A stretch of DNA of 45,128 bases from a virus: the IMG/VR virus record IMGVR_UViG_3300031456_000009, positions 1 through 45,128 of that record; one strand, 5' to 3'. The position numbers and the translations under genes are program-made. How positions within the stretch are numbered: the stretch's first letter is position 1; each line of letters starts with the position of its first letter. Positions 7,072 to 44,600 of this stretch are shown here, piece after piece. The notes beneath the pieces are model-generated. The model was given only the letters and a program-made list of their open reading frames with translations, was not told where the DNA came from and did no database searches.

Positions 7072-7091
7072 GACGCGCTCCCGTTGGCCCA

Positions 7092-7295: not shown

Positions 7296-7307
7296 ATAGG
7301 CGCTATT

Positions 7308-7750: not shown

Positions 7751-7769
7751 GGCGTGCTATCCTGGCGGC

Positions 7770-8018: not shown

Positions 8019-8019
8019 G

Positions 8020-8364: not shown

Positions 8365-8591
8365 TTCTCCGTTGGCATAGGTCGGGCCTCGTCCAACGCC
8401 GCGCGCGCCAGTTCCACGAAGCTCATGTCGCGCTCGTAGCGCCGGAACATCACCGGGTGGCTCTTGGTGTTGCGATAGTGGTGCTCGATCATGTTGGCGA
8501 GTTCTTCCGTCGTCGCCTTCAGCGCGGTGCGCAGCAGCGTGTTGCCGAGGCGCAGGATGCGGTTCTGTTCAGCAAGGTCGATGTCGCCCAT
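8361..8591 (-). CDS. Hypothetical helical protein
   Basis: A 76-residue protein starting at ATG 8591, one base after the upstream stop. It is largely alpha-helical: 'DLAEQNRILRLGNTLLRTALKATTEELANMIEHHYR' forms a long helix, perhaps a coiled coil for dimerisation. It lies in the leftward early operon and is coupled to the next gene by ATGA. No family recognised. Confidence 0.65.
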   Translation of the reverse strand: MGDIDLAEQNRILRLGNTLLRTALKATTEELANMIEHHYRNTKSHPVMFRRYERDMSFVELARAALDEARPMPTEN

Positions 8592-24667: not shown

Positions 24668-24853
24668 GTGATCAAGCGCACGCACACCTGGGACGCCATC
24701 CGCGACGTTTGCACCGTATGCGGTCGCACGCGCGAGGAGATTGTCGACCGCAAGCTCGGCTGCGATCCCGGTCGCCACCCGCGCCGCCCGGTCACGCTGC
24801 CGCGCGTGCGCTTCCTCGAAAGGCCGCTCGACCCGGAGGACGACCATGTCTGA
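24668..24853 (+). CDS. Small CxxC protein upstream of portal
   Basis: 61 residues from a GTG start at 24668. 'CTVCGRTREEI' (CxxC) and a third cysteine ('GCDP') suggest a small zinc knuckle, and the C-terminus is Arg/Pro-rich. GCGGAGG lies upstream. Its last codons overlap the portal start by 8 bases. Confidence 0.6.
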   Translation: MIKRTHTWDAIRDVCTVCGRTREEIVDRKLGCDPGRHPRRPVTLPRVRFLERPLDPEDDHV

Positions 24854-27179
24854 CACCGCGCCGGGCAAAACCGCGCCCACCGACGACGACACGCGCTTCG
24901 ATGACATCGAGTTCAACCCGGCCATCGAACCGAAGAAGTCGCGCGCGTGGCTCAACATGCTGGAGGAGAGCGAAGACGCGTTCGAAAAGTGGAACGAGCA
25001 CTGCGACAAGATCGAGAAGCAGTACGCTTCGCTCGAACGGCTCTCGAACATGGCGCGCGATAAAGAATTTCAGATGTTCTGGGCCAACATCGAAGTGGAG
25101 AAGCCGGCCATCTACGCCTCGCCGCCCCAGCCGGTGGTGGTGGCGAAGTTCAAGGATCGCCGCCCGGTCTACGACGCCGCCTCCGAGATGCTGGAGCGCG
25201 CCTGCACCGTCGCGTTCGACATGGCGCGCATTCAAGACCTCATGCTGCTGATCCGCGATGATGTCGTGCTGATCGGTCGCGGCGTGCCCTGGTGCCGCTA
25301 TGAGAGCGGCAAGGACGGCGGCAGCTACTACGACAGCGAGCGCGTCTGCGTCGACTTCAAGAACCGGCGCGACTTTCTCCATTCGATCAGCCGCAACTGG
25401 CGCGAGGTGACCTGGGTCGCGGCGGCGAGCTACTTGACGCGCGAGGCTGCGCGCGAACGCTTCTACAAGCACTCGGGCAACGCCTATCAACAGGCCGAGT
25501 ACAAGGTCGACCGCGACACCAAGGAAGTCGGCGGCGCCGATAATCGCGAGCGCGCCAAGTTCTGGGAAATCTGGAGCAGGACCGAGCGGCGCGTCGTCTG
25601 GGTCGCGAAGGGCTGCGAAGACATTCTCGATGAAGACGACCCGCACCTCGACCTGTCGAATTATTTCCCGTGTCCCAAGCCCGCGTACGGCACCGTGCAG
25701 CGCAACTCGCTCGTGCCCGTGCCCGACGTGATGCAATACAAGGATCAGCTCGATGAGTTGAACCTGCTCACCGGGCGCATCCACGCCTTGAGCGAAGCGC
25801 TGGAGGCGAAAGGCTTCTACCCGGCCGGCGGCGCCGAGCTTGGCGACGCGGTGCAGGCCGCGATCCGCACCAAGACCGCCGGGCGCATGCTGGTGCCGAT
25901 CTCGAACTGGGCCGCGTTCGGCGGTTCGAAAGAGGTGATCATCTGGTTGCCCATCGACATGATCGCCTCGACCATCACCGCGCTGGTGCAACTGCGCAAG
26001 CAGGTGATCGACGACATTTATCAAATCATGGGGCTGTCCGACATCATGCGCGGCGCGACCGACGCGCGCGAGACGCTCGGCGCACAGCAATTGAAATCGC
26101 AGTACGGCTCGACCCGCGTGCGCGACAAGCAGGCCGAGATGGAGCGCGTCGCTGTCGACCTCGTCGCCATCACCGCCGAGATCATCACCGAGAAGTTCGA
26201 CCCGGTCACCATCATCGAGATGAGCCAGACGCAACTGCCGACGCAGGCGATGCAGCAACAGCAGGTCAAGCAGCTTCAGGGCCAACTCGCCCAGCAGCAG
26301 CAGATGATGCAGATGCTGCAGAGCAACCCGCAGGCGCAGCAGGCGATGCAGCAGAACCCGAAGGCCGGCGAGATGCTGCAGCAGGCGCAGCAGGTGATGC
26401 AGGACGGCCAGGACGCCATCGCCAAGGTGATGGCCAAGCCGACCGTCGAGCAGGTGCTGACCTTCCTGCGCAACAACCGCGCGCGCTCGTTCGTGCTCGA
26501 CATCGAGACCGACAGCACCATTCTCATTGACGAGAACGCCGAGAAGCAGCGCCGCTCCGAGTTCATCGGCGTGCTCGCGCAGCTTCTGCCGCAACTCACC
26601 CAGATGGTGCAGGTCGCGCCTGACAGCGCGCAATTCTGCGGTGAGGTGCTCAAGTTCGCCACCGCGCCGTTCCGCGCCGGGCGCAGCCTCGCTGGCTCCA
26701 TCGATGACTTTGTCGACAAGTTCGAGCAGAAGGCGTCAGCGCCGCGCGGCGACGATCCGGCAACGCAGCAGAGCAAGGCGGCGATCCAGATCGAGCAGAT
26801 GAAGGACAACCGCGAGCGCGAGAAGAACAAGCAGGAGGCCGAGCTTGCCGCCGCCGAACTGAAGATGAAGGACGACCACGCCAAGGCCAAGCTGGCCAGC
26901 GATCAGGCCATCGAGGCGGCCAAGCTGAAGCAGGACAGCCAAGACAACTTCATCGACGTCGGCGCGCAGAACCAGAAGGCGATGCAGGAGCGCGAAAAGC
27001 ATCAGGCCTCGATGGTCGAGAAGAACGCCAACATGGCGATGACGCGCCAGAAGGCCGAACTTGCGGCCCAGGCCGCGCGCAGCAAGCAGGTCGACATGGC
27101 GGCGCGCGCCGACGAACGCCGCGCCATGCAGCAGTTCAAGATGACACAACGGCCGGGTGGTGGAGGGTTCGGGCTGTGA
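24846..27179 (+). CDS. Portal protein
   Basis: A 777-residue portal from the ATG at 24846 (GGAGG upstream). The N-terminal two thirds have the usual layout: clip and wing parts ('YASPPQPVVVAKFKD', 'ARIQDLMLLIRDDVVLIGRGVPW') and a stem helix region with 'DQLDELNLLTGRIHALSEAL' and 'IDDIYQIMGLSDIMRGATDARET', which are diagnostic of portal proteins of alphaproteobacterial podoviruses. The C-terminal ~250 residues are Gln- and Lys/Glu-rich coiled coil, probably the barrel inside the head. Twelve copies make the DNA-entry ring. Confidence 0.9.
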   Translation: MSDTAPGKTAPTDDDTRFDDIEFNPAIEPKKSRAWLNMLEESEDAFEKWNEHCDKIEKQYASLERLSNMARDKEFQMFWANIEVEKPAIYASPPQPVVVAKFKDRRPVYDAASEMLERACTVAFDMARIQDLMLLIRDDVVLIGRGVPWCRYESGKDGGSYYDSERVCVDFKNRRDFLHSISRNWREVTWVAAASYLTREAARERFYKHSGNAYQQAEYKVDRDTKEVGGADNRERAKFWEIWSRTERRVVWVAKGCEDILDEDDPHLDLSNYFPCPKPAYGTVQRNSLVPVPDVMQYKDQLDELNLLTGRIHALSEALEAKGFYPAGGAELGDAVQAAIRTKTAGRMLVPISNWAAFGGSKEVIIWLPIDMIASTITALVQLRKQVIDDIYQIMGLSDIMRGATDARETLGAQQLKSQYGSTRVRDKQAEMERVAVDLVAITAEIITEKFDPVTIIEMSQTQLPTQAMQQQQVKQLQGQLAQQQQMMQMLQSNPQAQQAMQQNPKAGEMLQQAQQVMQDGQDAIAKVMAKPTVEQVLTFLRNNRARSFVLDIETDSTILIDENAEKQRRSEFIGVLAQLLPQLTQMVQVAPDSAQFCGEVLKFATAPFRAGRSLAGSIDDFVDKFEQKASAPRGDDPATQQSKAAIQIEQMKDNREREKNKQEAELAAAELKMKDDHAKAKLASDQAIEAAKLKQDSQDNFIDVGAQNQKAMQEREKHQASMVEKNANMAMTRQKAELAAQAARSKQVDMAARADERRAMQQFKMTQRPGGGGFGL

Positions 27180-29743
27180 GCATGGGCGACATCGCTGCGC
27201 AGGACAGCTACGAGATCGACCCGATGACCGGGGCGGTGATGAACCCGTCGCCGTACGCGCAGGGCAAGTTCGAGCGCATCGCCACGCGCCTCGGTGCCGG
27301 CATGCGCGATTGGTTTCAGACGCCCGGCCGCGCCTACAAGGAAGGGCTCGCGCCCGAGGAGGCGACCGACTGGGGCGCCGGCACCGCACTCAGCATGCTT
27401 GGCGTCGGCGCGCCGCTTGCGATGGTGGCGCCGTCGCGCGGCGCATCCGCTGGCATCTTCGGTGGCAAGCTTGCCGAGACGGCCGACCGCGCCGCGCTGC
27501 GTCAAGCTCAGTCGCTGGAGAAGACCGGCACCGATCCGGGCACGATCCTCGACACCACCGGCTGGGAGAAACGGCCCGACAAGCAGTGGCGGTTCGAGAT
27601 CAACGACCGCGATGCCGCGATGCAGCCCGACGCGTTCAAGCAGATGCGGATGAACGAGCCGCTGCCCGGCAACAGGCCTGACGTCACGGTCTCCGAAGTG
27701 TTCAAGCATCCCGATCTGTACGCCGCCTATCCGTGGGTCGGCGACATGCCCGCACGCCGCCTGCCCGCCGTCGACAAGTTTGGTCAGCCGAACACGACGC
27801 GCGGCGGCTACGATCCGCAGGGCAAGGCAGTCTATTTGCGCGAAGACCTGACGCCCGAGCAGGCGCGGCTGACGATGCTGCACGAGGCGCAGCACGCAAT
27901 CCAGGGTGCCGAAGGTTTCGCCGAGGGCGGCAGTCTCAGCGCGCCCGCCGTGGTCAGGCGCGGCGACAAGCAGCTTGAACAGACGGTCAGCGCGGCCGAG
28001 CAACGCTTCAACACCTTGCGCGACCAGATGCTGTCCGACGTCACCGCGCAGGCGCCGAGCGGCAACCCGACGCGCGCGCAGATCGATAAATGGAAAGCCG
28101 ATAACCCCGCGCTCGCCATCGAGATGGATCGCGCGTTCGATACCTTCTCGGCACCGGGCGGCGCGAACCGCAGCGCGTCGCGTTTCCAGGCCTACCGTTC
28201 GCTGCAGGGTGAGACCGAGGCGCGCAACGTGGCCGCGCGCGCCGATCTGATCCCCGAGCAGCGCTACCTCATGCGCCCCGAAGTGACCGAGGACGTGGCG
28301 CGCGCCCAACAGTGGGTGAACCGGGACAGGAAGCGCGGCAAGATGGGCGACGTCGCCGACACCGCAGCGCCCGGCATGATGCAGGACACGCCGGCGCCTG
28401 CACGCATGGGCAGCGTTCTCGCCGCGCCCGAGGAGATCAACCGCGCCGCAGCCGCCAGCGCGCAGGGCATCACGCAGCCGGCGTTGCGCAAGCTCTACGG
28501 CGAACTTGGCCTGACCGGCGGCGCGCCGTCCGAGCTTCTCGGTCCTTCGCTCGGCGCTGCGCACGATGCCGGCGCGATCAAATCCGCCATCGACCTCAAG
28601 CTCGCCGACCGCGCCGTGCTCGACACGATGACGCCGAAGCAGCGCCAGGGGTTCGCCCTCGGCGGCAAGGTGCCCGAGGGTTTCACGCTGCCGTCGCGCG
28701 AAGCGGGCGCGGCTGAACGCGAAGCCTACAAGCCGCTCAAGAAGGAGATCACCAAGGCCGAGGCCGCGTTCGATGCCGGTGTCGCGCGCGGCGACAAGCC
28801 GTCGATTTTCGATCTGTCGGCGCAGACCCTGATGAAAACGCCTGACGTCCCGCAGTTCAATCTGCCGCGCGTCGCGCCCGAGCAGACCGAGCGGCTCGCG
28901 TCGGTGCCGCGCGGCGGGCTGCAGCGGGTCGAGCGCGCAGCGGCAGCAGCACCGGAAGAAAACTGGGGCTGGTATAATCTGCAGCAGGCGCGCGACAGGT
29001 TTCACGACATCCACGGCAAGGCGCGCGGTGAGCAGGCGTTCAATGCGTGGCTCGACAGCGTCGCCGGCACCTCGATGGTCAACCCCATCGACAACAATCT
29101 GCGCTCATCGACGTGGTACCTGCAGCAAATTCTGGAGGGCAAGCCGCTGCCCGAGACGATGCAAATCAAAGACCCGGGCGGCAAGTCGGTCAAGCTGATG
29201 GTCGGTGGTCCGCCGGCCGGCTACGGCGCCAAGAGCCAAATCCAGCACGCGGATCGCGTGCGCGAGTATCTGACCAACAGCTACGACCCGGTGACCAATC
29301 CGAAGCCGATCTCGTATCGCATGAACCTCGGCGGCAACTGGATGCCGCGCACCGTCGACACGCACGACATTCGCAACCTCGTCGGCATGCCGGCGGCGAA
29401 AGAAATTTTCAAAGAGGATGCGGCGCTGCTGCCGAAGGAGTACGCCTACCTTGAGAGCATTGGGCAGCGCGCGGCGGATCGCGCGGGTGCGCCCCAGGCG
29501 GCGCAGCAGGCCGCGACCTGGGTCGGCGGCGGCAAATACACCGGCCTGAAATCATACCCGGCACCGCTGATGGAAGCGCTGAACCGTCGCGCTCATGTCA
29601 CGGGCGCAGTGCGCGACATCTCGCCCGAGCAGGCGCTGAGGGAAGCGTTTTCAGGCAAGGCGCCGCTGCTCGGGCTCGGCGGCGCTGCTGTCGCTGCGCC
29701 CGGCGTGATGGGCGGTCTCGCGTCGCAAGACCGCTACGAGTGA
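27176..29743 (+). CDS. Large polyvalent protein with zincin-type HExxH domain
   Basis: An 855-residue protein. GTG 27176 overlaps the portal stop and has GGAGGG 8 bases upstream; ATG 27182 is the alternative. Residues 228-246 hold 'LTMLHEAQHAIQGAEGFAEGG', broken here: the metal-site HEAQH is 236-240, followed by 'GETEARN' at 345-351, whose Glu could be the third zinc ligand. This HExxH ... E-x-EARN order is typical of zincin-like domains in phage and element-borne polyvalent proteins. The C-terminal third ('FNAWLDSVAGTSMVNPIDNNLRSS', 'GNWMPRTVDTHDIRNL') resembles a second domain common in such proteins (DUF7178-like, from memory). Sitting beside the portal, it may be packaged and injected. 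Confidence 0.75.
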   Translation: MSMGDIAAQDSYEIDPMTGAVMNPSPYAQGKFERIATRLGAGMRDWFQTPGRAYKEGLAPEEATDWGAGTALSMLGVGAPLAMVAPSRGASAGIFGGKLAETADRAALRQAQSLEKTGTDPGTILDTTGWEKRPDKQWRFEINDRDAAMQPDAFKQMRMNEPLPGNRPDVTVSEVFKHPDLYAAYPWVGDMPARRLPAVDKFGQPNTTRGGYDPQGKAVYLREDLTPEQARLTMLHEAQHAIQGAEGFAEGGSLSAPAVVRRGDKQLEQTVSAAEQRFNTLRDQMLSDVTAQAPSGNPTRAQIDKWKADNPALAIEMDRAFDTFSAPGGANRSASRFQAYRSLQGETEARNVAARADLIPEQRYLMRPEVTEDVARAQQWVNRDRKRGKMGDVADTAAPGMMQDTPAPARMGSVLAAPEEINRAAAASAQGITQPALRKLYGELGLTGGAPSELLGPSLGAAHDAGAIKSAIDLKLADRAVLDTMTPKQRQGFALGGKVPEGFTLPSREAGAAEREAYKPLKKEITKAEAAFDAGVARGDKPSIFDLSAQTLMKTPDVPQFNLPRVAPEQTERLASVPRGGLQRVERAAAAAPEENWGWYNLQQARDRFHDIHGKARGEQAFNAWLDSVAGTSMVNPIDNNLRSSTWYLQQILEGKPLPETMQIKDPGGKSVKLMVGGPPAGYGAKSQIQHADRVREYLTNSYDPVTNPKPISYRMNLGGNWMPRTVDTHDIRNLVGMPAAKEIFKEDAALLPKEYAYLESIGQRAADRAGAPQAAQQAATWVGGGKYTGLKSYPAPLMEALNRRAHVTGAVRDISPEQALREAFSGKAPLLGLGGAAVAAPGVMGGLASQDRYE

Positions 29744-29759
29744 TCACAAGGAGGAGACC

Positions 29760-30317
29760 ATGGCCCAGAGCACGACGACAGTGACGCCGGATGGCCCGAC
29801 GCCACCCACGAACTTTACCGGACAGGTCGGCATGCGTCCGCCGACCACGGACGGGCTGTCACCGATTGACGACGGCGCTGCGGGCGCACTCACCGCGTTC
29901 GCTGCGCCGGTCAGCGGCACCGCGTTCGAGGGCGCGGGCAGCGAGGTGGTCGTGACCGCGCCGGGCTCGCGCGCCGAATGCCCGACGCAGTCTGTGTCCG
30001 ATCTCGGTGCCTACACCACCTCGCCGAATGGGCAGCACGCGTCGAGCCTGTCGCCCACGACCAACCCGACCATCAGCGGTCTGGTCCCGGCCTCGCTCGC
30101 GAGCGGTGCGGGCACCAACGCGCTCGCGGTCAACGGCGCGAACTTCACGCGGCAGTCGGTCGTCTACGTGAACGGCGTCGCGCAGCCCACCAGCTTCGTG
30201 TCCAACGTGCAGATCAACGTCTCGGCTGCACCGAAGAAAGCCACCGCCGGAACGCTTCCGGTTTATGTCTCAACAGCCGGTGTCGTCACCGCGCCAACCA
30301 ACTGGACCTTTACATGA
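29760..30317 (+). CDS. Ig-like (IPT/TIG) domain protein, head decoration candidate
   Basis: A 185-residue protein with AAGGAGGAG upstream. Residues ~103-185 form an IPT/TIG-like Ig fold: 'PTISGLVPASLASGAGTNALAVNGANFTRQSVVYVNGVAQPTSFVSN...INVSAAPKKATAGTLPVYVSTAGVVTAPTNWTF' (shown with gaps). The first 100 residues are low-complexity with Gly/Ala/Thr. Ig-like domains on phage capsids are commonly surface decorations that bind carbohydrate. It overlaps the next gene by ATGA. Confidence 0.75.
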   Translation: MAQSTTTVTPDGPTPPTNFTGQVGMRPPTTDGLSPIDDGAAGALTAFAAPVSGTAFEGAGSEVVVTAPGSRAECPTQSVSDLGAYTTSPNGQHASSLSPTTNPTISGLVPASLASGAGTNALAVNGANFTRQSVVYVNGVAQPTSFVSNVQINVSAAPKKATAGTLPVYVSTAGVVTAPTNWTFT

Positions 30318-30514: not shown

Positions 30515-30837
30515 TGGAGACGACGCTGTACGAAGTCGAGCCTGGGCGGTGGCGCGTCGCGCGTCCGCATACGCCGGTCGCGCGCTCCGCGCTGCCCAGG
30601 CCGTTCGTGATCTCGGACGCCATGCCGCCGACCGAGCAGGTTGACGGCCGCTTCTACACGAGCAAGCGCGAGTTTCGTGCTGTCGGGCGCGCCCACGGCC
30701 TCACCGAGGTGGGGAACGAGAAACTGAAACCGAAGATGCGCGCCACCGCCGCGCCGCAGGTGAAGCGGTCGCGCCGCGACACATTCCGGCGCGCCGCTGC
30801 GCGCTATCGCGCAGGCGAACGCCCGAGCAGGAGTTGA
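30514..30837 (+). CDS. Small basic protein, late operon
   Basis: A 107-residue protein with 'METTLYEVEPGRWRVAR' at the start, 'RFYTSKREFRAVGRAHGLTEVGNEKLK' in the middle and an Arg-rich tail. The middle pattern ('FYTSKR.F......GL.EVGNE.LK') is one I remember from small phage-like proteins placed before scaffold genes. It is 2 bases from the next gene. Function unknown. Confidence 0.65.
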   Translation: METTLYEVEPGRWRVARPHTPVARSALPRPFVISDAMPPTEQVDGRFYTSKREFRAVGRAHGLTEVGNEKLKPKMRATAAPQVKRSRRDTFRRAAARYRAGERPSRS

Positions 30838-30839
30838 GC

Positions 30840-32186
30840 ATGTCTGACGTTACCGTGGCCCCGAACGCCGCGCCGCCTCCGAGCAATGCGCCGGCAGCGA
30901 ATGAAGTGGCAATCGATCAGAACCCGACCAACTCGCCGCAGCCGGTCGGCTCGCAGGCGCCTGAGAAGACGGTCGAGCCGCGCGGCTCCGAGCACCGACC
31001 GGAAAGCCGCCGCGAGGCGATCCAGAAGGCGTTCGCCAAAGCGCGCGAGGCGAACCCGCCGAAGGCCGCCGACGCCAAGATGGGTCATAACCAGCCGCCC
31101 GAGGAGACCAAGCGCGAGGTGCCGGCGCGCGCCAAGCCCGAGCGCGAGAAGCTCGAACCGATTGACCTGCGCAAGCGGCCGACCGAACAACCGCGCGACC
31201 AGGGGCGTTTCGCCAGGGCAGAACCTGACGGCGGCGGACAGCAACAGCCGCGTCAGCAGCAGTCAAATCAAACGGGCGGGCAAACAGGCGGACAGACGCG
31301 CGGACAGGCGGACCAGACAGGCGGGCAGCAGCAAGCCGCCCATTTGCCCGAGGCCGCGCCCTATCGCAACGCGCCCTCGCGCATGACCGAGCGCGCCAAG
31401 GCCGAGTGGGCGACGACACCCGAGAGCGTGCGCGCGGATGTTTACCGCATGCACACCGAGTTCGCCGAAGGCTTCAAGCGCTACAAGGGCGACCACGAGA
31501 CGATGAAGACCCTGCGGCCGTTCGAGCAGATGGCCAGGGAGCACGGCACGACGCTGCAGCGCGCGCTCGACAATTACACCGGGATGGAGGCGAAGCTTCG
31601 CAGCGACGTCGTCGGCGGGCTCGACATCATCGTCAACAATCTGAACTTGCGCACGCCCGAGGGCGAGCGGCTCACGCTGCGCGATGTCGCTTTCCACATC
31701 CTCAATCAGTCGCCCGAGCAGCACAAGCTGCGCCAGAACGAGAACGCGCAGTCGGCGCAGAGCCAGCAGATCGGGCAGTTGCACCAGATGGTGAACACGC
31801 TTGCGTCGGGAATTAAGGAGATGCAATATGAGCGCCAGTTCGCGAATACGCGAACGGCAATCGACCGCTACGCGGAAGACCCGAAGCACCCCAGGTTTGA
31901 CGAACTGTCCGACCTGATCGAGCAAGAGATCAAACTCGGCTTCGACATCGACACCGCGTACATGCGCGCTGACAGGCTGCGGCCCGCCACCGCTCGTGCG
32001 GCTCAAACCCGCACCAACGGCAACGGCAACGGCACCCAGGCGCAAGCACGACCCGTCGACCGCTCTATCCATGGCGCGCCTGACGCTGGCCCCTCAAACG
32101 GGACGTCACGCGGCAAAAGTGGAAAGCAGACAGGGCGACGTGAGGCTATCGCGAGCGCGATCAAACGCGTGAGCGGCTCGCTTTAA
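30840..32186 (+). CDS. Scaffolding protein
   Basis: A 448-residue protein from ATG 30840 (CAGGAG upstream), starting MSDVTVAPNAAPPPSN. The N-terminal ~180 residues are Pro/Gln/Lys-rich and disordered. The middle has a helical domain ('AKAEWATTPESVRADVYRMHTEFAEGFKRYKGD') and 'YTGMEAKLRSDVVGGLDIIVNNL', and the C-terminal end is basic ('GRREAIASAIKRVSGSL'). Disordered N-terminus, long helices and basic C-terminus directly upstream of the capsid gene are the pattern of internal scaffolds. No protease is obvious. Confidence 0.8.
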   Translation: MSDVTVAPNAAPPPSNAPAANEVAIDQNPTNSPQPVGSQAPEKTVEPRGSEHRPESRREAIQKAFAKAREANPPKAADAKMGHNQPPEETKREVPARAKPEREKLEPIDLRKRPTEQPRDQGRFARAEPDGGGQQQPRQQQSNQTGGQTGGQTRGQADQTGGQQQAAHLPEAAPYRNAPSRMTERAKAEWATTPESVRADVYRMHTEFAEGFKRYKGDHETMKTLRPFEQMAREHGTTLQRALDNYTGMEAKLRSDVVGGLDIIVNNLNLRTPEGERLTLRDVAFHILNQSPEQHKLRQNENAQSAQSQQIGQLHQMVNTLASGIKEMQYERQFANTRTAIDRYAEDPKHPRFDELSDLIEQEIKLGFDIDTAYMRADRLRPATARAAQTRTNGNGNGTQAQARPVDRSIHGAPDAGPSNGTSRGKSGKQTGRREAIASAIKRVSGSL

Positions 32187-32309: not shown

Positions 32310-33332
32310 ATGCCGAATATCAACACCAACGCTGCGTACCAGCAAATTCTCTCGATGGCGATTGAAGACCGTTCATCGAGCTACGAGGACTTGGTCTCGA
32401 ACAACAACGCACTGCTCGCCGTGATGCGCCGCAAGGGGCTGTGGCAGACCTACTCGGGTCCGCGCATCCGCCAAACGCTGCAGATCAGCAAGCAGGTCGC
32501 GCAGTGGTATTCGGGCTTCGATCAGTTGCTCAATCCCGCAATCGATCTGTTCAACGACGCCTACTTCGACCCGAAGATGGTCGTGGTGCCGGTGATCCTG
32601 TCGATGCAGGAAATCCTGAACAACGAAGGCGAAGCGCAGCTTGAAGACGTCTACGACGCCTACATGGATGCGGCCGAGCGCGCGCTCGAAGACACCATGG
32701 ACGTCGCGCTCTATGCGGACGGCACGGCGAACGGCGGCAAGCAGCTTACCGGCCTCGCGACCGCAGTGCCCATCGTGGCCAACGCGGGCATCTATGGCGG
32801 CATCGACCGTGGCAGCGCCGCGATCTGGCGCACCTCGATCTTCGATGCGCAGTCGGCATCGGCGCCCATCGGCACGCAGGTCACCAAGGACACCATCCGC
32901 CCGTTCCTGAACTACATCATGACCAAGCAGTCGCGCGGACGTCAGTATGCCGACCTGCTCATCATGTCGCCCGAGCACTATGCGGCATACGACGCAGCCA
33001 CCATCGCGATCCAGCGTCAGACCAACGAGACGCAACTCGGCAAGCTCGGCTTCTCGGCGGTGGAATACATCGGCGGCGGCAAGCGCGCCGAGATCGTGCT
33101 CGACGGCGGCATCGGTTCGAACATGCCGGCGAACACGACGTTCGGTCTCAACACCGACAGCTTCCGCCTGCGCTACCACCCGAACCGCAACTTCGACAAG
33201 CTGTTCGACGGCGACGGCATGATGCCTATCGATAAGGACGCCATCGCGCAGTTCATTGGCTGGATGGGTGAACTGACCCAGGTCAATCCGCTGTTCAACT
33301 GGCGCTTCTACGACAGCAACCCCGCGACCTGA
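32310..33332 (+). CDS. Major capsid protein
   Basis: A 340-residue protein, with GGTGGAG upstream. 'MPNINTNAAYQQILSMAIEDRSSSYEDLVSNNNALL' (broken here) and 'FDPKMVVVPVILSMQEILNNEGEAQLEDVYDAY' and 'RRQYADLLIMSPEHYAAYDAATIAI' style text match the HK97-fold capsids of alphaproteobacterial podoviruses. It comes after scaffold and before a small head-tail gene. It is followed by two strong hairpins (33341-33377, 33381-33425), typical after a very abundant product. Confidence 0.9.
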   Translation: MPNINTNAAYQQILSMAIEDRSSSYEDLVSNNNALLAVMRRKGLWQTYSGPRIRQTLQISKQVAQWYSGFDQLLNPAIDLFNDAYFDPKMVVVPVILSMQEILNNEGEAQLEDVYDAYMDAAERALEDTMDVALYADGTANGGKQLTGLATAVPIVANAGIYGGIDRGSAAIWRTSIFDAQSASAPIGTQVTKDTIRPFLNYIMTKQSRGRQYADLLIMSPEHYAAYDAATIAIQRQTNETQLGKLGFSAVEYIGGGKRAEIVLDGGIGSNMPANTTFGLNTDSFRLRYHPNRNFDKLFDGDGMMPIDKDAIAQFIGWMGELTQVNPLFNWRFYDSNPAT

Positions 33333-34851: not shown

Positions 34852-36650
34852 GCCAGAGCGCAGCATTCCGCCGCGTCCCGGTGCAGCAGCAGTTCGCACA
34901 GAACCTGCAGGTCACCACCTTGCCGGCGCCGACGCGCGGCATCATCCAGCACGAGAACGACGCGTTCACCGGGCCGGGCGCCTGCATCATCTCGGACAAC
35001 TGGATGCCGACCATGAAGGGCGTCAAGTTGCGCGGCGGCTGCACGCGCTGGTGCGTGCTGCCCGAGGCGGTGCCGGTCGTTTCCGGGTTCGAGTACGTCA
35101 GCGGCAATCAGCAGCGCATGTTCGCTGCGAACGCGGCCAAGCTGTACGACGTCACAAGCAGCGTGCCGACGCTGGTGAAGGCCGGGCAGACCAGCGGCAA
35201 CTACTGCGCCAGCCAGCTTGCGAACCTCTCGGGCTACTGGCTGATCGCCGTCAACGAGACCGGCGACGCACCGCTGCGCTTCAACGGCGCGACCTGGGCC
35301 ACGCTCGATCCCACCGCGATCGCGGCGTGGGCGAATAATTTTCATTACGTCGTCGGGGCCACCGCCAAGGATGCGACGGACAATACTTTTTGGAAAAACA
35401 CGGTGGACCACACCAGCGCCGCTGCCGGTACCTTCGCGGCTGACCGTACGGCGCGCCCGACATTCTGGACGTCGGCGAGCGCACCGGACGGTGCCGGATG
35501 GATCACCGGCCCCATCGGCTCACCGGTCGTAAACGGCCGCAACCTGAGTTACGTCTGCAAGTATCGCAACCGGCTGTTCTTCATCGGCACGAAGTCGATG
35601 GACATCTGGTATCTCGGCATCGACAGCATCAGCGGGGTGCTGACCAAAATTCCGCTGTCGGGCGCGGCGACGCACGGCGGCTATCTGATGTTCATGGCGA
35701 GTTGGTCGATTGATGCCGGCGACGGCATTGACGACAAGCTGGTCATCGGGACGTCGGAGGGTGAGATTTTGATCTTCACCGGCAGCAATCCTGCCGATCC
35801 GGCCAACTGGCGGCAGGAAGGCCGCTATCAGATCAGCCCGCCGCTCGGCATGAACGCGCACGACAACGTCGGCGGCGATCTCCTGGTGCTGACGGTCGAC
35901 GGCATTGTGCCGATCAGCCAAGCGATCACCAAGAGCGCGGGACAACTCGAACTGGCGCTGATCTCGCGCACCATCAAGCGCATGTGGCGCGAGGAGATGC
36001 TCGCCAAGCGCGGCCTGCCGTGGACGATGAAGAAGTGGGACGAGTACGGCGCCAACTTCATCACGTTCCCTGGCGGCACCGCCGGCAATCGCTACTGCCT
36101 CGCGATGAACAACACGACCGGCGCCTTCGCACGCGCGGTGGGTTGGGATGCGATGTGCTTTCTGCGCATGCGCGGCGACATGTTCTTCGGCACGCAGGGC
36201 GGCATCATCATGCAGGCCAATCGCACCGGCTACGACGACGGCAAGCCGTATGTCGCGACGCTGGTCGGCGGCTGGGAGATGTTCCAGGCTGGCTCGCAAG
36301 ACGTCGTGTGGCATCAGGCGCGCGCGGTCTTCACCGCCCCACCGGGTGAACCTTTCCAGCCGCAGATCGCGGCATGCACTGACTATATTCTCGCGATCCC
36401 GCCGCCACCGCCTGCGGGCATCGACCCCGGCGTTCCCGACGTCTGGGACGAGGGCAAGTGGGACCACGCGAAGTGGGATCAGCCCGCGCCGGCCAAGAAC
36501 GTCAACCGGAATACGATGTGGGTGTCGGTCGGCATGACCGGCTTCTCTCACGCACCCATCGTGCAGATCACTGTCGCGCAGCAGGCAACGCCCGACGTCG
36601 AACTGGTCGCAATCGCGGCGACGTACGAGCGCGCCGGCATCAACGTTTAA
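34848..36650 (+). CDS. Tail tubular B-like / DNA stabilisation protein
   Basis: A 600-residue protein from ATG 34848 (ATGA overlap); the frame's upstream GTG at 34833 is less likely. 'AFTGPGACIISDNWMPTMKGVKLRGGCTRWC' begins the conserved part, followed by repeated beta-propeller-like segments ('RLFFIGTKSMDIWYLGIDS', 'DDKLVIGTSEGEILIFTGSNPADPANWRQEG', 'GDMFFGTQGGIIMQANRTGYDDG'). This is the pattern of podovirus nozzle/tail-stabilising proteins. It likely forms the tail tube end with the preceding adaptor. Confidence 0.85.
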   Translation: MSQSAAFRRVPVQQQFAQNLQVTTLPAPTRGIIQHENDAFTGPGACIISDNWMPTMKGVKLRGGCTRWCVLPEAVPVVSGFEYVSGNQQRMFAANAAKLYDVTSSVPTLVKAGQTSGNYCASQLANLSGYWLIAVNETGDAPLRFNGATWATLDPTAIAAWANNFHYVVGATAKDATDNTFWKNTVDHTSAAAGTFAADRTARPTFWTSASAPDGAGWITGPIGSPVVNGRNLSYVCKYRNRLFFIGTKSMDIWYLGIDSISGVLTKIPLSGAATHGGYLMFMASWSIDAGDGIDDKLVIGTSEGEILIFTGSNPADPANWRQEGRYQISPPLGMNAHDNVGGDLLVLTVDGIVPISQAITKSAGQLELALISRTIKRMWREEMLAKRGLPWTMKKWDEYGANFITFPGGTAGNRYCLAMNNTTGAFARAVGWDAMCFLRMRGDMFFGTQGGIIMQANRTGYDDGKPYVATLVGGWEMFQAGSQDVVWHQARAVFTAPPGEPFQPQIAACTDYILAIPPPPPAGIDPGVPDVWDEGKWDHAKWDQPAPAKNVNRNTMWVSVGMTGFSHAPIVQITVAQQATPDVELVAIAATYERAGINV

Positions 36651-36664
36651 GGGGTCACGCGGCC

Positions 36665-38041
36665 ATGGTGCAGATCACCAGTCGGGATCAGGTCGACGCG
36701 CTGCGCATGCCGTCGCCGTTCTTCGGCGACGATCCGCGCGGCATGGTCGACCGCGACGCGCTGCAGGCGTGGTCGTGGGGCACGGACTACGACGAGAACG
36801 CGCAACGCGCCAAGATCGCAAAGGCGCTGCTGGAGCAGCAGGCGCGCAGCGCTGCGGCCCCGCCGCTCTTTTCCGGCCTCGGCGGCTCCAGCGGCGGCGG
36901 TGGCGCGAGCGGTCTCTACGCTGGCGGCGGCGGCGGTGCGGCCGATCAAGACAGCAGCGCGGATGGCGGCGGCGCCACTGGCCTCAGCGGCGGCCCCGGC
37001 AGCGTGGGCGGTCCTGGCGGCCTCGGTGGTGGTCCTGGCGGCGCTCCGGGCGGCGCCCCTGGTGGTGCTCCTGGTGGTGCTCCTGGCGGCGCGCCCGGCG
37101 GTCTCGGCGCAGGCGTGGCCGGCGTCGCCTCGGCGGCCGATGCCATCGGCAGTGCGAACCCCGGCCAGAGTACGCCGGGCATGAGCCTCGGAGATATCGG
37201 CCAGTCGGTAGGCCAAGCGGCGGCGACGCAATCCGGTTCGATTGTCGGGCCGAATGCTCCCGGCATCCACGGCCCCAACGACGTGATGTCGAACGACATC
37301 GAGGCGAGCGCGCCTACAGGCTCGATTGTCGCGGCGAACGCCCCCGGCATTCACGGGGTCAACGATGTGATGTCGTCGCCCGCGCCCGACCCGGTGTCGG
37401 CGCCATCGCCCGCGCCAGCACCATCGCCCGCGCCAGCACCCGACATCGCGAACGCGCACGACCAAGCGGCTGCAATGCAGGCGTCGATGGCGCCTGGGAT
37501 GATGGCGGGCATGATGTCGTCGCAGTCGACGCAGGCCTCTGCCATCGCAGACGCGCTCAGTGGCGCGCAGGCGGCTGCAGCTCAGGATGCTGCCGATGAT
37601 GCAGCCGCTGACGCAGCCGACGCCGCCGCCGCGAGCGGCATGGGTCTGAGCGGCACGAACGCAGGTGCTCTGTCTTCGGGCATGGGCGCTTTGACAGAAG
37701 GTGCCCCCTCCAGCGGCGTTATTGCAGACGCCTCGACCGCGAACGCTCCCGGATCATTCGACACCAGCGGGCCGGGCGTGACGTCATCGGCGCAGGACGC
37801 GGCGGATGACGCTGCTGCCGACGCTGCCGACGCCGCTGGTGACGCTGCTGCTGACGCAGCAGCCGACGCTGCCGCCGATGCTGCGGCCGACGCTGGTGAT
37901 GCTGGCAGCGAAGGTGGCGAAGGCGGTGAAGGTGGCGAAGGCGGTGAAGGTGGCGAAGGTGGTGAAGGCGGTGAAGGTGGTGGCAGCAGCGATGGCGGCA
38001 GCGATGGTGGCGGCAGTGACGGCGGTGGCGGCGGGTGGTGA
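36665..38041 (+). CDS. Gly/Ala-rich repetitive virion protein
   Basis: A 458-residue protein from ATG 36665. Residues 1-75 are ordinary ('SPFFGDDPRGMVDRDALQAW', 'YDENAQRAKIAKALLEQQARS'); the rest is low complexity. It has five GGAP units (residues 125-144), two copies of a 'GSIVxxNAPGIHGxNDVMS' block (about 188-206 and 218-236), two tracts of 'QDAADDAAADAADA', and eight EGG units coded at 37910-37981. It lies between the tail protein and the acetyltransferase-like protein, so it is probably a flexible virion component. Function unknown. Confidence 0.7.
   Translation: MVQITSRDQVDALRMPSPFFGDDPRGMVDRDALQAWSWGTDYDENAQRAKIAKALLEQQARSAAAPPLFSGLGGSSGGGGASGLYAGGGGGAADQDSSADGGGATGLSGGPGSVGGPGGLGGGPGGAPGGAPGGAPGGAPGGAPGGLGAGVAGVASAADAIGSANPGQSTPGMSLGDIGQSVGQAAATQSGSIVGPNAPGIHGPNDVMSNDIEASAPTGSIVAANAPGIHGVNDVMSSPAPDPVSAPSPAPAPSPAPAPDIANAHDQAAAMQASMAPGMMAGMMSSQSTQASAIADALSGAQAAAAQDAADDAAADAADAAAASGMGLSGTNAGALSSGMGALTEGAPSSGVIADASTANAPGSFDTSGPGVTSSAQDAADDAAADAADAAGDAAADAAADAAADAAADAGDAGSEGGEGGEGGEGGEGGEGGEGGEGGGSSDGGSDGGGSDGGGGGW
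37037..37096 (+). repeat. Five in-frame 12-bp repeats (GGAP)
   Basis: Five consecutive units of GGx GGx GCx CCx, each coding Gly-Gly-Ala-Pro, varying only at the third codon bases. In-frame 12-bp repeats let the protein grow or shrink by four residues without a frameshift. Confidence 0.85.
37910..37981 (+). repeat. Eight in-frame 9-bp repeats (EGG)
   Basis: Eight consecutive GAAGGxGGx units coding Glu-Gly-Gly, changing only at third positions. Slippage here would change the acidic tail by three residues per unit. Confidence 0.85.
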
Positions 38042-38882: not shown

Positions 38883-40283
38883 GTGGGGCTGTTCAAAGAC
38901 GATCCGCCGACGCCGCCCAATCCGATTGCCACCGCTGGTGCGCAGACGGGGACCAATGTCAGCACGTCTGTGGCCAACGCGTTCTTGAACAACACCAACC
39001 AGATCACGCCGCAGGGCGCGCTCTACTACGACCCGACCGGCACCTATTCGTGGACCGACCCGAGCACCAATCAGACCTACAACGTGCCGAGGTTCACGGC
39101 GACGCAGGTGCTCTCGCCCGCGCAGCAGAACATCAGCAATCTGGGTGTTCAGTCGGAGACCAATCTCGCGGGGCTCGCCGCGCAGCAGAGCGGCATGCTG
39201 CAGGGTCTCCTCGGCTCGCCGCTGGACATCTCGGGCGCGCCAGCAGCCGGCGATCCTTCGACGCTGAGCGGCGTCCCTGATGCGAAATTGAGCTATGGCG
39301 ACGGCAGTCGGCAGCAGGGGACATACGATGCCGGCGGCCCGATCACGCGCGACTATGGTGCGAACGACTTCAGCGCTGACCGCGCCAAGGTCGAGGAAAG
39401 CCTCTACCTGCGCATGGACCCGCAACTGCAGCGTGACCGTGGCGCGCTGGAAGCGCGCTTGGCCGACCAGGGCATCAAGATCGGCAGCCCCGCCTATCAG
39501 GCCGCGATGGATCAATACGGCCGGCAATTGACTGACACGCGGCTCGGCATCACGCAGACTGCCGGGCAAGAGCAGCAGCGCATGACGGAGATGGAAGCGC
39601 AGCGTGCTGCCTTCCAGAACGCCGCGCAGTCGCAGCAGTATCAGCAGAACGCTTCGCTCGCGCAGTTCGCCAATCAGGCGCAGCAGGGCAACTACACGCA
39701 GGATGCGGCGAGCGCGCAATTCTACAATGCCGGCGTCGCGACCGAGGCCGCGCGCAAACAGCAGATGATCGAGCAGCAAAATGCTGCGCGCCAGCAGTGG
39801 CTGCAGGAGCAGTACGCGCAGCGCAATCAGCCGATCAACGAGGTGACCTCGTTGATGTCGGGCTCGCAAGTGCAGAACCCGAACTTCGTGAACACCGGCA
39901 AGAGCAACATTCCGACCACCGACATCGCGGGGCTGATCAACACCAACTTCAGCCAGCAACTCTCGAACTATCAGCAGTCGTCGCAGAATTTTAACAGCTT
40001 GATGGGCGGCCTGTTCGGTATGGCGGGCGGCATCATGAAGTCGGATCGCGACGCGAAGAAGAACATTCACCGCATCGGTACCGTGTTCGCGGCGAGCAGC
40101 GAGGAGAAGAAGAAGCTGCCGATCTACTCGTACAGCTACAAGGACGACCCCGACAGCACGCGTCATGTCGGCCCGATGGCGCAGGACGTCGAGAAGGTCG
40201 ATCCCGGCGCGGTGCATACGATCCGGGGCACGAAGTACATCGAGCCGAGCCGCGTGATGGGCTCAATTCTCAGGGCAGCGTGA
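38883..40283 (+). CDS. Virion protein with C-terminal S74 self-cleaving chaperone
   Basis: A 466-residue protein from GTG 38883 (GGAG upstream). The first ~110 residues are beta-like ('TNQITPQGALYYDPTGTYSWTD'). The middle is a Gln/Ala-rich helical coil ('MTEMEAQRAAFQNAAQSQQ'). From S387 it has the S74 chaperone pattern 'SDRDAKKNIHRIG' (S387-D388, K392, N394-I395) and 'YSYKDDP...RHVGPMAQDVEKVDP', in which the family cuts just before the Ser. The chaperone helps trimerisation and is then lost. It is usual on tail spikes, so here it suggests that this is a trimeric fibre or needle-type component. Confidence 0.85.
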   Translation: MGLFKDDPPTPPNPIATAGAQTGTNVSTSVANAFLNNTNQITPQGALYYDPTGTYSWTDPSTNQTYNVPRFTATQVLSPAQQNISNLGVQSETNLAGLAAQQSGMLQGLLGSPLDISGAPAAGDPSTLSGVPDAKLSYGDGSRQQGTYDAGGPITRDYGANDFSADRAKVEESLYLRMDPQLQRDRGALEARLADQGIKIGSPAYQAAMDQYGRQLTDTRLGITQTAGQEQQRMTEMEAQRAAFQNAAQSQQYQQNASLAQFANQAQQGNYTQDAASAQFYNAGVATEAARKQQMIEQQNAARQQWLQEQYAQRNQPINEVTSLMSGSQVQNPNFVNTGKSNIPTTDIAGLINTNFSQQLSNYQQSSQNFNSLMGGLFGMAGGIMKSDRDAKKNIHRIGTVFAASSEEKKKLPIYSYSYKDDPDSTRHVGPMAQDVEKVDPGAVHTIRGTKYIEPSRVMGSILRAA

Positions 40284-40287
40284 CATC

Positions 40288-42495
40288 ATGGCAGATGGCG
40301 GCTTCATCTTCGGTGGCGATACCGGGGTCAGTTACGAAGACCTGCAGCGCCGCCGTGCTGTCGCGCAGGCTGTCGCGCAGCATTCGCGTGCGTTCCCGAA
40401 AACTGTCGGCGAGGGCCTGACCTATTTCGGTGAGGCTTTGGGCGATGTGATGAACGACCGGCGCCTGCAGTCGATGGAGAAGCTGCAGCGCGAGAAGGAA
40501 AGCGGCTTCATCAGCGGCGCGCCGCCGCCGTCGTTCACGCCGCCTGTCGGCGGGACTGCGTCGCCTGCTGCGGCTGCGTCTACGATCACGCCGCCGCCGG
40601 CAGGTGCGCCCACGGTCCCGATCACGGTCCCGACGACGCCGACCCCCACCCCGCGCCTCGGCAAAATGAGCGAAGTCGGCGACGCCATCGGGCGCCTTGA
40701 GCCTGACGAGACCATGCGCGGTTACTACACGCGGCTTGCCGGGCGCGAAGACCCGACCGGCGGGCAGCGTGTCTCGCCGACCGGCGCGGCGGGTCCGTTC
40801 CAGTTCACGCGCGGCACCGGCAAACAATACGGCCTGTTCGGAGATGACGGCACCGACAAGCGCACCGACATCGAAGCTTCGGTGAAGGCTGTCCAGCAAC
40901 TGACGCGCGACAACGCCGCCACCTTCATGCAGATGCACGGCCGCATGCCGACGCACGGTGAACTTGCGCTGATGCACCAGCAGGGCGGCGAGACCGGCGC
41001 ACGCATGGTCGCCGGTACCGGCAACGCGCCGTCGCGCAATCTCGCGGTCAACAACATCGACCCCAATTCCACGCCGCAGGACGCCGCCGCGAAAATCCAG
41101 GCCTACTACAAGATGCCCGACGCGACGATGCCCGAGGGCTACCACCTCGGTGGCGCGGGCGGCGGCCGTGATGCTGTCGCGCGTGCGACGATGGCGCCTC
41201 CTGGGGCGCCGCCGGCTCCGCTCTCCGCGCCGCCTGCCGGCCAACCCCAGCAGGTCGCATCGCTCGACCCGTCGATTGGCGCGAACGTCACCGCGCCGCC
41301 CGAGGCCGCGAGCAATCCGCCCATCATCAGCGACATCAAGCCCGCGACGCAGGTCGCCCAGGCTGGCGCGCCCAACACCATGCCGTCGAGCGAAGCGATC
41401 CCGGGCGCATCGGTGCAGGAGATGAAAGACCCCGGCGCCGCGCCGACGCGCCCGCCGATCCTGGGGCCGTCGAAGTCGCAGGCCTATTGGTCGCAGTACA
41501 TGAATAACCCGAGGGTCAGTCCCGAGTTGCGGGCTCGCGCAACGCATCAGTATCAGGTCGAGGAAGCCTACCGCAAAGAGCTTGAGACGCGACAGACCAG
41601 CGACTACGAGAACCAGCGCGGGCAACACCAGACGCATCGCGACGCCTACGACAAGTTCACGCGCGAGGCGCCTGACCGCATCATCAAGCAGTTGTCGGAG
41701 CGCACGAACCTGGAGAAGGCGCGCGCCGATCTTGAGAAGGCCTACTTCGAACAGGGCATCCCGCGCGAGCAGGCGACCGAGAAGGCGCGCCTTGAGATTG
41801 CCCAAGCGGTGCGTACGCTCGCCAAGCCCGACACGGTCGGAGCACAGGGCACGCACTTCGAACGCCCCTACGCGCCACCGGGCACGCCGCAAGCGGCGTT
41901 CAGCGTTCCGGCTGGCCTGCCGCCTCCAGAGGACAAGCCGCTCACCGAGCAGCAGGCGAAGGGCGTGCAGTTCGTTGTCCGCACGAGGCCCGATCTCGAC
42001 ATGGTCGACAACCAACTTCGTTACGGCAAGGTGCTGACCGACCCGGTCGAGGCCGCGCGTGCGAGCATCCCGGGCATCGGCAACATGACCATGTCGCCTG
42101 AGTATCGCCGCGCCAACAACGCTCTCACGAACTGGGGCGCGGCGTTTCTTACGCACGTCAGCGGCGCTGCGGTGTCTCCGTCCGAGGCTGGCCGCAACCT
42201 GCCTGCGTTCATGCCGCATGCCGGCGACACCGATCAGGACTTGCTCGACAAGGCGAACCGTCGCCGCACGTACACGGATGCATTGGCGCGCACCAGCGGT
42301 CGTGAAGGGCTGGCGGCGATCCAGAAGGAGGTCGGCGCGATCAACGACGACTATGCGTTCAAGAAGATCAGCGAAGGCCCGCCTGTGCAGGTGAAGTCGC
42401 TCAGTGACGCGAAGCTGCTCCCGCCCGGTCAACGCATCATTCTCCCCGATGGCTCGCCGGGTCAGGTGCCGCGCAGGCAGAAGCGGGGCGAATAA
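40288..42495 (+). CDS. Internal virion protein with lytic-transglycosylase-like domain
   Basis: A 735-residue protein. A lysozyme-like/transglycosylase domain is visible at about residues 130-250: 'YYTRLAGREDPTGG' with the candidate catalytic E154, then 'RVSPTGAAGPFQFTRGTGKQYGL', and 'HGELALMHQQGGETGARM'. The Pro-rich linkers around it, helical parts and a C-terminal 'YRRANNALTNWGAAFLTHVSGAAVSPSEAGRNL' domain are as in podovirus internal proteins, which loosen peptidoglycan so the DNA can enter. It overlaps the next gene (taATG). Confidence 0.85.
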   Translation: MADGGFIFGGDTGVSYEDLQRRRAVAQAVAQHSRAFPKTVGEGLTYFGEALGDVMNDRRLQSMEKLQREKESGFISGAPPPSFTPPVGGTASPAAAASTITPPPAGAPTVPITVPTTPTPTPRLGKMSEVGDAIGRLEPDETMRGYYTRLAGREDPTGGQRVSPTGAAGPFQFTRGTGKQYGLFGDDGTDKRTDIEASVKAVQQLTRDNAATFMQMHGRMPTHGELALMHQQGGETGARMVAGTGNAPSRNLAVNNIDPNSTPQDAAAKIQAYYKMPDATMPEGYHLGGAGGGRDAVARATMAPPGAPPAPLSAPPAGQPQQVASLDPSIGANVTAPPEAASNPPIISDIKPATQVAQAGAPNTMPSSEAIPGASVQEMKDPGAAPTRPPILGPSKSQAYWSQYMNNPRVSPELRARATHQYQVEEAYRKELETRQTSDYENQRGQHQTHRDAYDKFTREAPDRIIKQLSERTNLEKARADLEKAYFEQGIPREQATEKARLEIAQAVRTLAKPDTVGAQGTHFERPYAPPGTPQAAFSVPAGLPPPEDKPLTEQQAKGVQFVVRTRPDLDMVDNQLRYGKVLTDPVEAARASIPGIGNMTMSPEYRRANNALTNWGAAFLTHVSGAAVSPSEAGRNLPAFMPHAGDTDQDLLDKANRRRTYTDALARTSGREGLAAIQKEVGAINDDYAFKKISEGPPVQVKSLSDAKLLPPGQRIILPDGSPGQVPRRQKRGE

Positions 42496-44600
42496 TGGCC
42501 GACGATCCGTGGGCAGAATACAGGAACGCTGAAGCGCCGCAGCAGGCGCCGAGTGATCCGTGGTCGGTCTATCGCTCGCCCGGCACGGCATCGCCTGTCG
42601 TCAGCACTCCTGGCGCGCCGCAGAGCATGACGGCATCGCCCGAGGACAAGTATCGCGCAGCCGCAATCGAGGAGCGTGATCGCGCGCTGAAGTTGGGCAT
42701 CCCGCTTCAAGAGGGATACACGTCACGTTTGGCGCGCGGCGTCGGCATGGGCTGGACTGACGAATTGATGGCGGCCGGCGCAACGCCGTTCGAAATGATC
42801 AAGCGCGGCCTGACTGACCCGCGAGAAGCCTACCGCTACACGAAGGCGCGCGAAAATCTTCGCGGCGAGCAGACGGACGTCAACACGAGGGGCGCGCTCG
42901 GTACCGGTGCCGAGGTTCTCGGCAGCTTGGCGACCGGCGGTGGCGTGCTCGGTGCCGGCGAGCGCGCTGCAGCCGCCCGCATTCCGTTTACCGCAGGCGC
43001 GCAAATCCCGGCGAACGTCGTCAACTGGGGCAGCAACGTTGCGAAGGGCGCTGGCCTCGGCGCGTTCTCCGGTGCTGGCGAGGCCAAGGACGTCGAGGGT
43101 ATTCCGAAGGGCATGCTGATGGGTGGCGTCCTGGGCGCCGGCATCGGCGGGGCGCTGCCGGGTGTCGCGACCATCGCTGGCCAGGGCCTGCGTACGCTCC
43201 AGATGCCGCGCCTGCGCGATCCTCAGAACATCGCCATCGAGCATGTCGCCAAGGTGGCGCGCGATGCTGGCGTCGAGCCGGCCGAGATCGTGCGCCGTGT
43301 GGCTGACGCGAACGCTGCCGGCCAGCCGTATGCGGTGGCTGATGCGCTTGGCAAGGAAGGCCAGCGCAAGCTGACCGCGATGGCGAAGGTGCCCGGGCCG
43401 CAGCGTGAGGCGATCACCGAGGCATTGGTCGCGCGCGATCTCAACATGCCGACCCGAACCGGCGAGGAGGTCGGGCGGGCTCTGGGCGCACCCACCACCG
43501 CGCGGGCGGCGCAGGACGAACTGATCACGCAGGCCGGCGCGCGAGCCGCACCGATCTACCGGGAGGCCGAGCAGCACCCGACGTGGAGTAATCGCCTGCA
43601 GGAATTTATCAGCGACCCCATCGCACAGCAGGGGCTGCGTCACGGTGTCGAGCTTCAGCGGTTGCGCACGGTCGGCACTGACCGGCCGTTCCGTCCCCAG
43701 GACGCGATGATTACCGACTTCAATGCGGCTGGCGAGCCGGTCTGGAGCGGTGTGCCGAATATGCAAACACTCAACACCCTGAAGACCGGCCTCGACCGCA
43801 TGGTCGAAGCGAACACGGATACGGTGACGGGGCGGGTGAATGCGCAGGGGCACGCCATCATGGGCTTCCGCAATCGCATGCTCGAAGAAATGGACGCGAT
43901 CAACCCGACCTACAGGCGGGCTCGCGCGACATACGCCGAGCCGATGCAGGTGCGCGATGCCGTGACGACCGGGCGCGAGATGGCGACGCGCGGTCGTGCC
44001 GCAGATAATATTGAGACATTCCGCAACATGGCCCCGCCAGAGGGGACGCGCACCGTCGCAGGCGTCAATCCTGAACAGCAAGGCGTCCGCATCGGATACG
44101 CCGATGCATTGCGCGGCCAGATGGAGCGCACCGGCAATTTGCCGACCGGGCTGCGTGAGAAATCCACGAAGGGCGCGCAGGAGCTTTCCGAGCTTTCGCT
44201 TTATCAAGGCCCGAACCGCCCGGGCGAGCCGGATCAGTTGCGCAAGTTTCTCAATCGCGAGGAGCAGATGCAGCGGACGTCGAAGGCCGCGCTGGGCGGC
44301 TCCTCGACGGTCGAGAACCTCGCCGACGTTGCCGCCGCCCCCGGCGGTGGTGACGCGCTTGGTCTGGTGTCATCGGCCGCGAGCGGTGACGCGATGGGCA
44401 TTGTGCGCAAGCTCGCCGGCATGGTGCCGGGGGCTCTCAAGGGTGAGAGCGAAGCGCAGCGCGTCGCGATCACCAACGCACTGCTCTCGCGCGACCCGAC
44501 CAGGGTTCAGGAGATGGCTGACCGTATCGCCGCACATGAGTTGCGCAGGCGCGGCGTCAATCCGTGGACCGGCACTGCGCGCTACCCAGTTGGTCAGTAG
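42495..44600 (+). CDS. DNA-ejection/internal virion protein (copy 2 module)
   Basis: A 701-residue protein. The N-terminus has a duplicated 'DPWAEYR' (residues 4-10) and 'DPWSVYR' (about 22-28), the same arrangement as the RFDQY pair at 626. Then come a Gly-rich hydrophobic part (about residues 138-240, 'LGTGAEVLGSLATGGGVLGAGE', 'GMLMGGVLGAGIGGALPGVATIAG') that could cross membranes, and a helical C-terminal half ('MDAINPTYRRARATYAEPMQVRDAV'). It is followed by the second fibre gene. The two 'module' proteins share design but little sequence. Confidence 0.7.
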   Translation: MADDPWAEYRNAEAPQQAPSDPWSVYRSPGTASPVVSTPGAPQSMTASPEDKYRAAAIEERDRALKLGIPLQEGYTSRLARGVGMGWTDELMAAGATPFEMIKRGLTDPREAYRYTKARENLRGEQTDVNTRGALGTGAEVLGSLATGGGVLGAGERAAAARIPFTAGAQIPANVVNWGSNVAKGAGLGAFSGAGEAKDVEGIPKGMLMGGVLGAGIGGALPGVATIAGQGLRTLQMPRLRDPQNIAIEHVAKVARDAGVEPAEIVRRVADANAAGQPYAVADALGKEGQRKLTAMAKVPGPQREAITEALVARDLNMPTRTGEEVGRALGAPTTARAAQDELITQAGARAAPIYREAEQHPTWSNRLQEFISDPIAQQGLRHGVELQRLRTVGTDRPFRPQDAMITDFNAAGEPVWSGVPNMQTLNTLKTGLDRMVEANTDTVTGRVNAQGHAIMGFRNRMLEEMDAINPTYRRARATYAEPMQVRDAVTTGREMATRGRAADNIETFRNMAPPEGTRTVAGVNPEQQGVRIGYADALRGQMERTGNLPTGLREKSTKGAQELSELSLYQGPNRPGEPDQLRKFLNREEQMQRTSKAALGGSSTVENLADVAAAPGGGDALGLVSSAASGDAMGIVRKLAGMVPGALKGESEAQRVAITNALLSRDPTRVQEMADRIAAHELRRRGVNPWTGTARYPVGQ

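Follow-up and report, generated by a model that had tools for sequence, protein, structure and literature searches.

The stretch of DNA analysed here (the window) is a virus record of 45,128 bases from IMG/VR, and all gene positions given below without a further label refer to this whole stretch. An open reading frame of 855 residues at 27176-29743, which an earlier note had called with exactly these boundaries, follows the portal gene. As the note also claimed, the two genes overlap, with the GTG start at 27176 sitting on the portal stop codon TGA at 27177-27179 (GTGA). The gene's place among the late genes is borne out as well. A possible ATG start lies two codons past the GTG and would shift the residue numbers by 2. 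Genes for a virion structural protein and then for the major head protein follow downstream, as judged from PHROG matches. The features of the locus, and of the protein that concerns us, are as follows.

24846-27179, plus strand: portal protein gene, likely start ATG at 24846; PHROG 12082 (portal), E 6.8e-183; the stop codon shares bases with the GTG of the zincin gene
27162-27166, plus strand: GGAGG, resembling a ribosome-binding site in sequence, 9 nt upstream of the GTG start
27176-29743, plus strand: gene for the two-module protein (zincin and DUF7178-like), 855 residues
27374-27430, plus strand: residues 67-85, hydrophobic and rich in Gly/Ala, N-terminal to the zincin unit (hydropathy peak)
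27455-27619, plus strand: LPD23, residues 94-148 (Pfam PF18838, E 8.5e-17, 61.1 bits, cut-off 27)
27623-28270, plus strand: zincin core, residues 150-365 (DUF6782 match, AlphaFold pLDDT mostly >90, structure matches to IrrE and minigluzincins)
27881-27895, plus strand: HEAQH, residues 236-240, on predicted helix 227-246, conserved in 55/55 relatives
27944-28150, plus strand: long helical insert between the HExxH and glutamate helices, residues 257-325 (predicted model)
28208-28228, plus strand: GETEARN, residues 345-351, on predicted helix 344-354; G345, E346, E348 and R350 invariant in 55 rows
28343-28411, plus strand: linker between the modules, residues 390-412 (pLDDT <50 in both models)
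28421-29665, plus strand: DUF7178-like module, residues 416-830, kept in sister phages without the zincin
29666-29722, plus strand: C-terminal Gly/Ala-rich hydrophobic stretch, residues 831-849 (highest hydropathy peak; pLDDT <50)
29760-30317, plus strand: 185-residue neighbour with an IPT/TIG domain (domain match), kept in sister phages
30834-32186, plus strand: virion structural protein (PHROG 25516), scaffold-like to judge by its position
32310-33332, plus strand: major head protein (PHROG 9953, E 3.6e-75)

A 670-residue antisense frame at 27002-29014 is regarded as a high-GC artefact, because relatives preserve the frame on the plus strand. The GC content along the gene is 63-71% with no step where the modules meet, and recent acquisition, as judged by base composition, was rejected on these grounds.

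The protein joins two unlike domains in one polypeptide, a zincin unit and a DUF7178-like module. The earlier note had read HEAQH and GETEARN as a zincin active site, and both motifs lie precisely where it placed them. The reading itself is borne out by Pfam, by the invariance of the motifs in 55 aligned relatives, by the helices of an AlphaFold model and by structural matches to IrrE and the minigluzincins. What the note overlooked is the two-module build, the absence of the zincin from the orthologues of close relatives, and the fact that it is the second module that relatives conserve.

The HExxH motif in the 855-residue protein is not a chance occurrence; shuffles of the sequence contain HExxH in 0.5% of cases and HExQH in 0.03%. 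Ten residues, H236, E237, Q239, H240, Q243, E246, G345, E346, E348 and R350, are invariant in all 55 relatives, a divergent set with about 24-38% identity. The Pfam family DUF6782, a 'putative metallopeptidase', matches residues 205-254, spanning HEAQH, at 28.8 bits (cut-off 27; E 9.4e-7). Peptidase family M78 (PF06114) scores 18.9-20.7 bits, under its curated cut-off of 22, and its profile matches 7 of the 55 relatives at E<=0.01. When an alignment of phage M78 peptidases was compared by hhalign, the strands and the HExxH region matched (E 8e-4, probability 24%). These phage peptidases carry an invariant E-x-x-A-R after HExxH, and because it lines up by eye with E346-T-E-A-R, the third zinc ligand is likely to be E346 rather than E348. 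Relatives of the zincin are encoded in at least 509 IMG/VR stretches and are found in genomes of many bacterial phyla. HE[LIA]QH occurs in 80 of 80 loci, partly since one search pattern included it, and GExExR, which was part of no search pattern, in 76 of the 80. The spacing from HExxH to the glutamate helix ranges from 38 to 234 residues among relatives.

The AlphaFold model of residues 61-405 (pLDDT 87.5, pTM 0.80) predicts a zincin core fold of short sheet and helices. In this confident model, one compact unit, HEAQH and GETEARN lie on separate helices: strands at 192-196, 210-213 and 218-222 precede the HExxH helix, and a later predicted helix carries both E346 and E348. A Foldseek search of the PDB gave IrrE/PprI (3dte: 55 columns, 1.5 A, prob 0.98), selecase and jannalysin among its best matches, limited to the catalytic core, with E-values of 0.17 or more that are not significant and low whole-query TM-scores (0.12-0.16) for the peptidase matches. 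The comparison with zincin structures that the earlier note had proposed thus returns IrrE/PprI and minigluzincins as the top solved matches, though none with an E-value below 0.001.

How does LPD23 relate to the peptidase? All 55 zincin relatives score for it. So as not to select on the zincin, the 59-residue LPD23 was also used alone as a query, and in 77 of its 80 best loci the same frame runs on to an HExxH 72-166 residues further downstream, followed in 75 of these 77 by ExE[AS]R; the remaining 3 loci are cut by contig ends. These 77 loci and the single confident model indicate that LPD23 is here the N-terminal piece of the peptidase unit and no separate domain, and we suggest that it be treated as part of the peptidase instead of as an independent domain. 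In one relative, a single frame of 2472 residues (L004, 3103-10518) encodes two LPD23-zincin domains in one polypeptide.

The second module (model pLDDT 88.1) appears to be linked to DUF7178 via its homologues. The DUF7178 profile (PF23802) scores 12.8 bits against the window protein itself, under the cut-off of 27; the cut-off is passed by the homologues L118, L121, L122, L125, L128 and L140, whose matches to the module of the window protein have E-values between 2e-16 and 2e-30. Extra domains in these homologues are ASCH (L140), SLT transglycosylase (L128) and, just below cut-off, ART-PolyVal (L121). A structure search matched the module to no solved structure, and its BFVD matches are phage proteins that include SleB, helicase, ART and LPD fusions. 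A first scan of genome contigs with the module found nothing, and a partial literature search found no literature on DUF7178. A VDTH motif and a single weak fold match had raised the idea that the module is an HhH-GPD DNA glycosylase, which is unsupported; the AGOG glycosylase ranked 18 (E 3.4, TM 0.39 over the target), and hhalign gave a glycosylase 0.7% probability, aligned at the VDTH stretch only. The DUF7178 (PF23802) protein WKV16971.1 of Microcystis phage MJing1 resembles the window protein in its second module (28% identity) and in its place between probable portal and head genes, but it lacks a zincin and has a methyltransferase-like gene just upstream. The product of that gene (L016, 4796-5491) ends in a hydrophobic Gly/Ala tail resembling that of the DUF7178 protein.

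Seven IMG/VR relatives that share the window's head type (L001, L102, L103, L002 and L105, and the partial L107 and L113) have a module 63-71% identical to the second module, and L013, an element whose flanks do not match the window's head genes, has one that is 65-67% identical. HExxH is absent from every one of these relatives with a readable N-terminus. The rest of the records of L001, L102, L002, L105 and L013 yielded no zincin either, an absence that is not final, as these records may be incomplete. The window and its sisters L001, L002 and L102 have in common the gene order portal, DUF7178 protein, TIG, small, scaffold, head protein; the sisters' head protein is 81-84% identical to the window's, and the zincin is missing from their DUF7178 gene. 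Because such close relatives keep the second module without the zincin, the protease looks like an optional virion passenger and not like a part that builds the shell. With gene and head otherwise matching, phages with and without the zincin make a clean comparison possible.

The protein as a whole is, on the evidence of gene content, accessory to head building, because Rhizobium phage RHph_I3_18 (head protein 62% identical to the window's), Mwe-JY13, ppBjS10J-1 and Mx8 share the portal and head protein and show no match to the 855-residue protein in the stretches compared. The DUF7178 module also seems to move between head types, because the portal and head genes of L013 do not match those of the window; in L013 the module (6608-8272) lies directly upstream of a terminase-like gene. 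In the sister phage L002, a gene with F5/8 type C domains (7387-8529) lies between the portal and head protein genes, which suggests that this stretch is variable. A distant phage, L134, has the same LPD23-zincin-DUF7178 order as the window. Two independent origins of the fusion were considered for these phages and not upheld: the tree separates them, and the AU test does not reject one clade, slightly favouring a single clade of window and L134 (p 0.63). A single ancient fusion followed by losses would be just as plausible.

Further evidence comes from the company that these genes keep. Near DUF7178 genes, 20 genes were scanned, one per locus and each no more than two or three genes away in either direction, and 10 of the 20 have a role in DNA ejection or encode a portal, terminase or head protein (DNA-ejection proteins in L114, L115 and L117; portal in L105, L116, L125 and L134; TerL in L128 and L130; major head protein in L124). 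Portal families are the most frequent neighbours of the zincin relatives (at least 13 of 85 genes), and LPD23-zincins are also found inside giant virion-type proteins of 2000-4000 residues. One of these is H66_0060 (AGC34669.1) of the H66/F116-type Pseudomonas phages, which is 33.5% identical to the window protein over residues 95-265, shares LPD23 with it and has HELQH and GEVEARN. Unlike the window's zincin, which is part of an 855-residue protein adjoining the portal, that of H66 lies within a virion protein of 3787 residues, and a GenBank note describes this protein as verified by mass spectrometry. The presence of the window protein in virions, as the earlier note proposed, is supported by analogy with this record.

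No domain is commoner in phage polyvalent proteins than the zincin, and we know of no targets established for zincins. Zincin-like metallopeptidase domains of these proteins have been described and fall into 12 clades (Iyer et al. 2017, PMC5512222). The window protein can be placed in this class with good support, having the predicted HExxH and glutamate helices, the variable insert, the late-gene position and the domain fusions; it differs in its moderate size (855 residues) and in being joined to a DUF7178-like module. By the description in that paper it also resembles phage P1 DdrB and the N4 virion RNA polymerase, large zincin-bearing phage proteins that reach the virion, with other partner domains. 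Polyvalent-protein zincins are thus already known; the DUF7178 combination, the pattern of presence and absence and the LPD23 coupling were not met in a partial literature search, and no priority is claimed. The same kind of search found no paper on virion metalloproteases that act after ejection.

We consider it probable that the window encodes an accessory, virion-associated polyvalent protein in which an optional M78/IrrE-like zincin peptidase is built onto a conserved DUF7178-like module. The module (about 416-830) would be the constant part and would probably keep the protein in place at the portal or the ejection apparatus, or close by. The N-terminal part (about 94-365), with LPD23 integral to it, would be the peptidase. 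Its zinc would presumably be bound by H236 and H240, with E346 the likeliest third ligand, and E237 would act as general base. Through translational coupling to the portal the protein would be produced together with the head proteins; it may enter the particle and be delivered, and could then cleave one or a few proteins or its own linker. Host or competitor proteins seem slightly ahead of self-cleavage as substrates, because the module exists without the protease in the sisters and so needs none, although the sequence does not separate host targeting, self-cleavage and another role. As a tentative extension, DUF7178 may serve tailed phages in general as a module for virion loading or ejection that takes on exchangeable enzymes (LPD23-zincin, ART, transglycosylase, ASCH), so that the portal-adjacent slot serves as a payload bay and the zincin is an exchangeable payload against host or competitor proteins. 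DUF7178 is in any case a candidate carrier module for loading proteins into virions.

A somewhat doubtful alternative is that the zincin processes its own protein, which it would cleave in the linker (about 390-412) or at the N-terminus, either ahead of packaging or following it, so as to separate the two modules, as proposed for P1 DdrB. The linker, predicted with low confidence and unconserved, lies exactly between the modules, and self-processing has been proposed for polyvalent zincins as readily as host targets, with DdrB processing cited (PMC5512222). Zincin-bearing proteins transferred or packaged at full length are, however, cited there as well (N4 vRNAP, ArdC, TraC1). In addition, orthologues without the zincin retain the second module, so that freeing it is no general need, and the pattern among the sisters weakens, though not decisively, self-cleavage as the purpose of the protease.

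The nearest solved folds, IrrE/PprI, and the resemblance of the profile to phage M78 peptidases could also point to an ordinary intracellular regulator peptidase of the ImmA/IrrE type, lying in the late operon by chance and not packaged. The likeness covers the core fold around HExxH and the ExxAR of the phage M78 glutamate helix; unlike those peptidases, the window protein falls below the M78 cut-off and has the long helical insert and the N-terminal LPD23 part. Such a regulator is unlikely, given that the peptidase is fused to a module whose genes lie close to those for ejection and portal proteins, and given the giant virion-type proteins that contain LPD23-zincins; no DNA-binding or repressor partner was seen next to the zincin gene. 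A head maturation protease, acting on the scaffold, the portal or the major head protein as the head is assembled, would suit a gene between portal and scaffold/head protein, with no other protease named among the scanned head genes, but it is very improbable when sisters with a head protein 81-84% identical and the same scaffold lack the zincin in this gene, and RHph_I3_18 and Mx8 have no homologue of the protein between portal and head protein. A catalytically dead zincin with a structural role, for which one might cite that no activity data for the clade were found, is just as improbable in view of catalytic residues that are all invariant in 55 such divergent relatives.

Three other genes of the window deserve mention. 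The product of 38883-40283 has, in its C-terminal part, matches to PHROGs for DNA ejection and tail fibres, and this part resembles an intramolecular chaperone (S74) end, and the putative virion gene at 36647-38041 encodes a C-terminal run of more than 40 residues of EGG and GGSD repeats. The gene at 42495-44600 belongs to PHROG 5880 (unknown function), and a member of the same family lies two genes upstream of the DUF7178 gene of L122.
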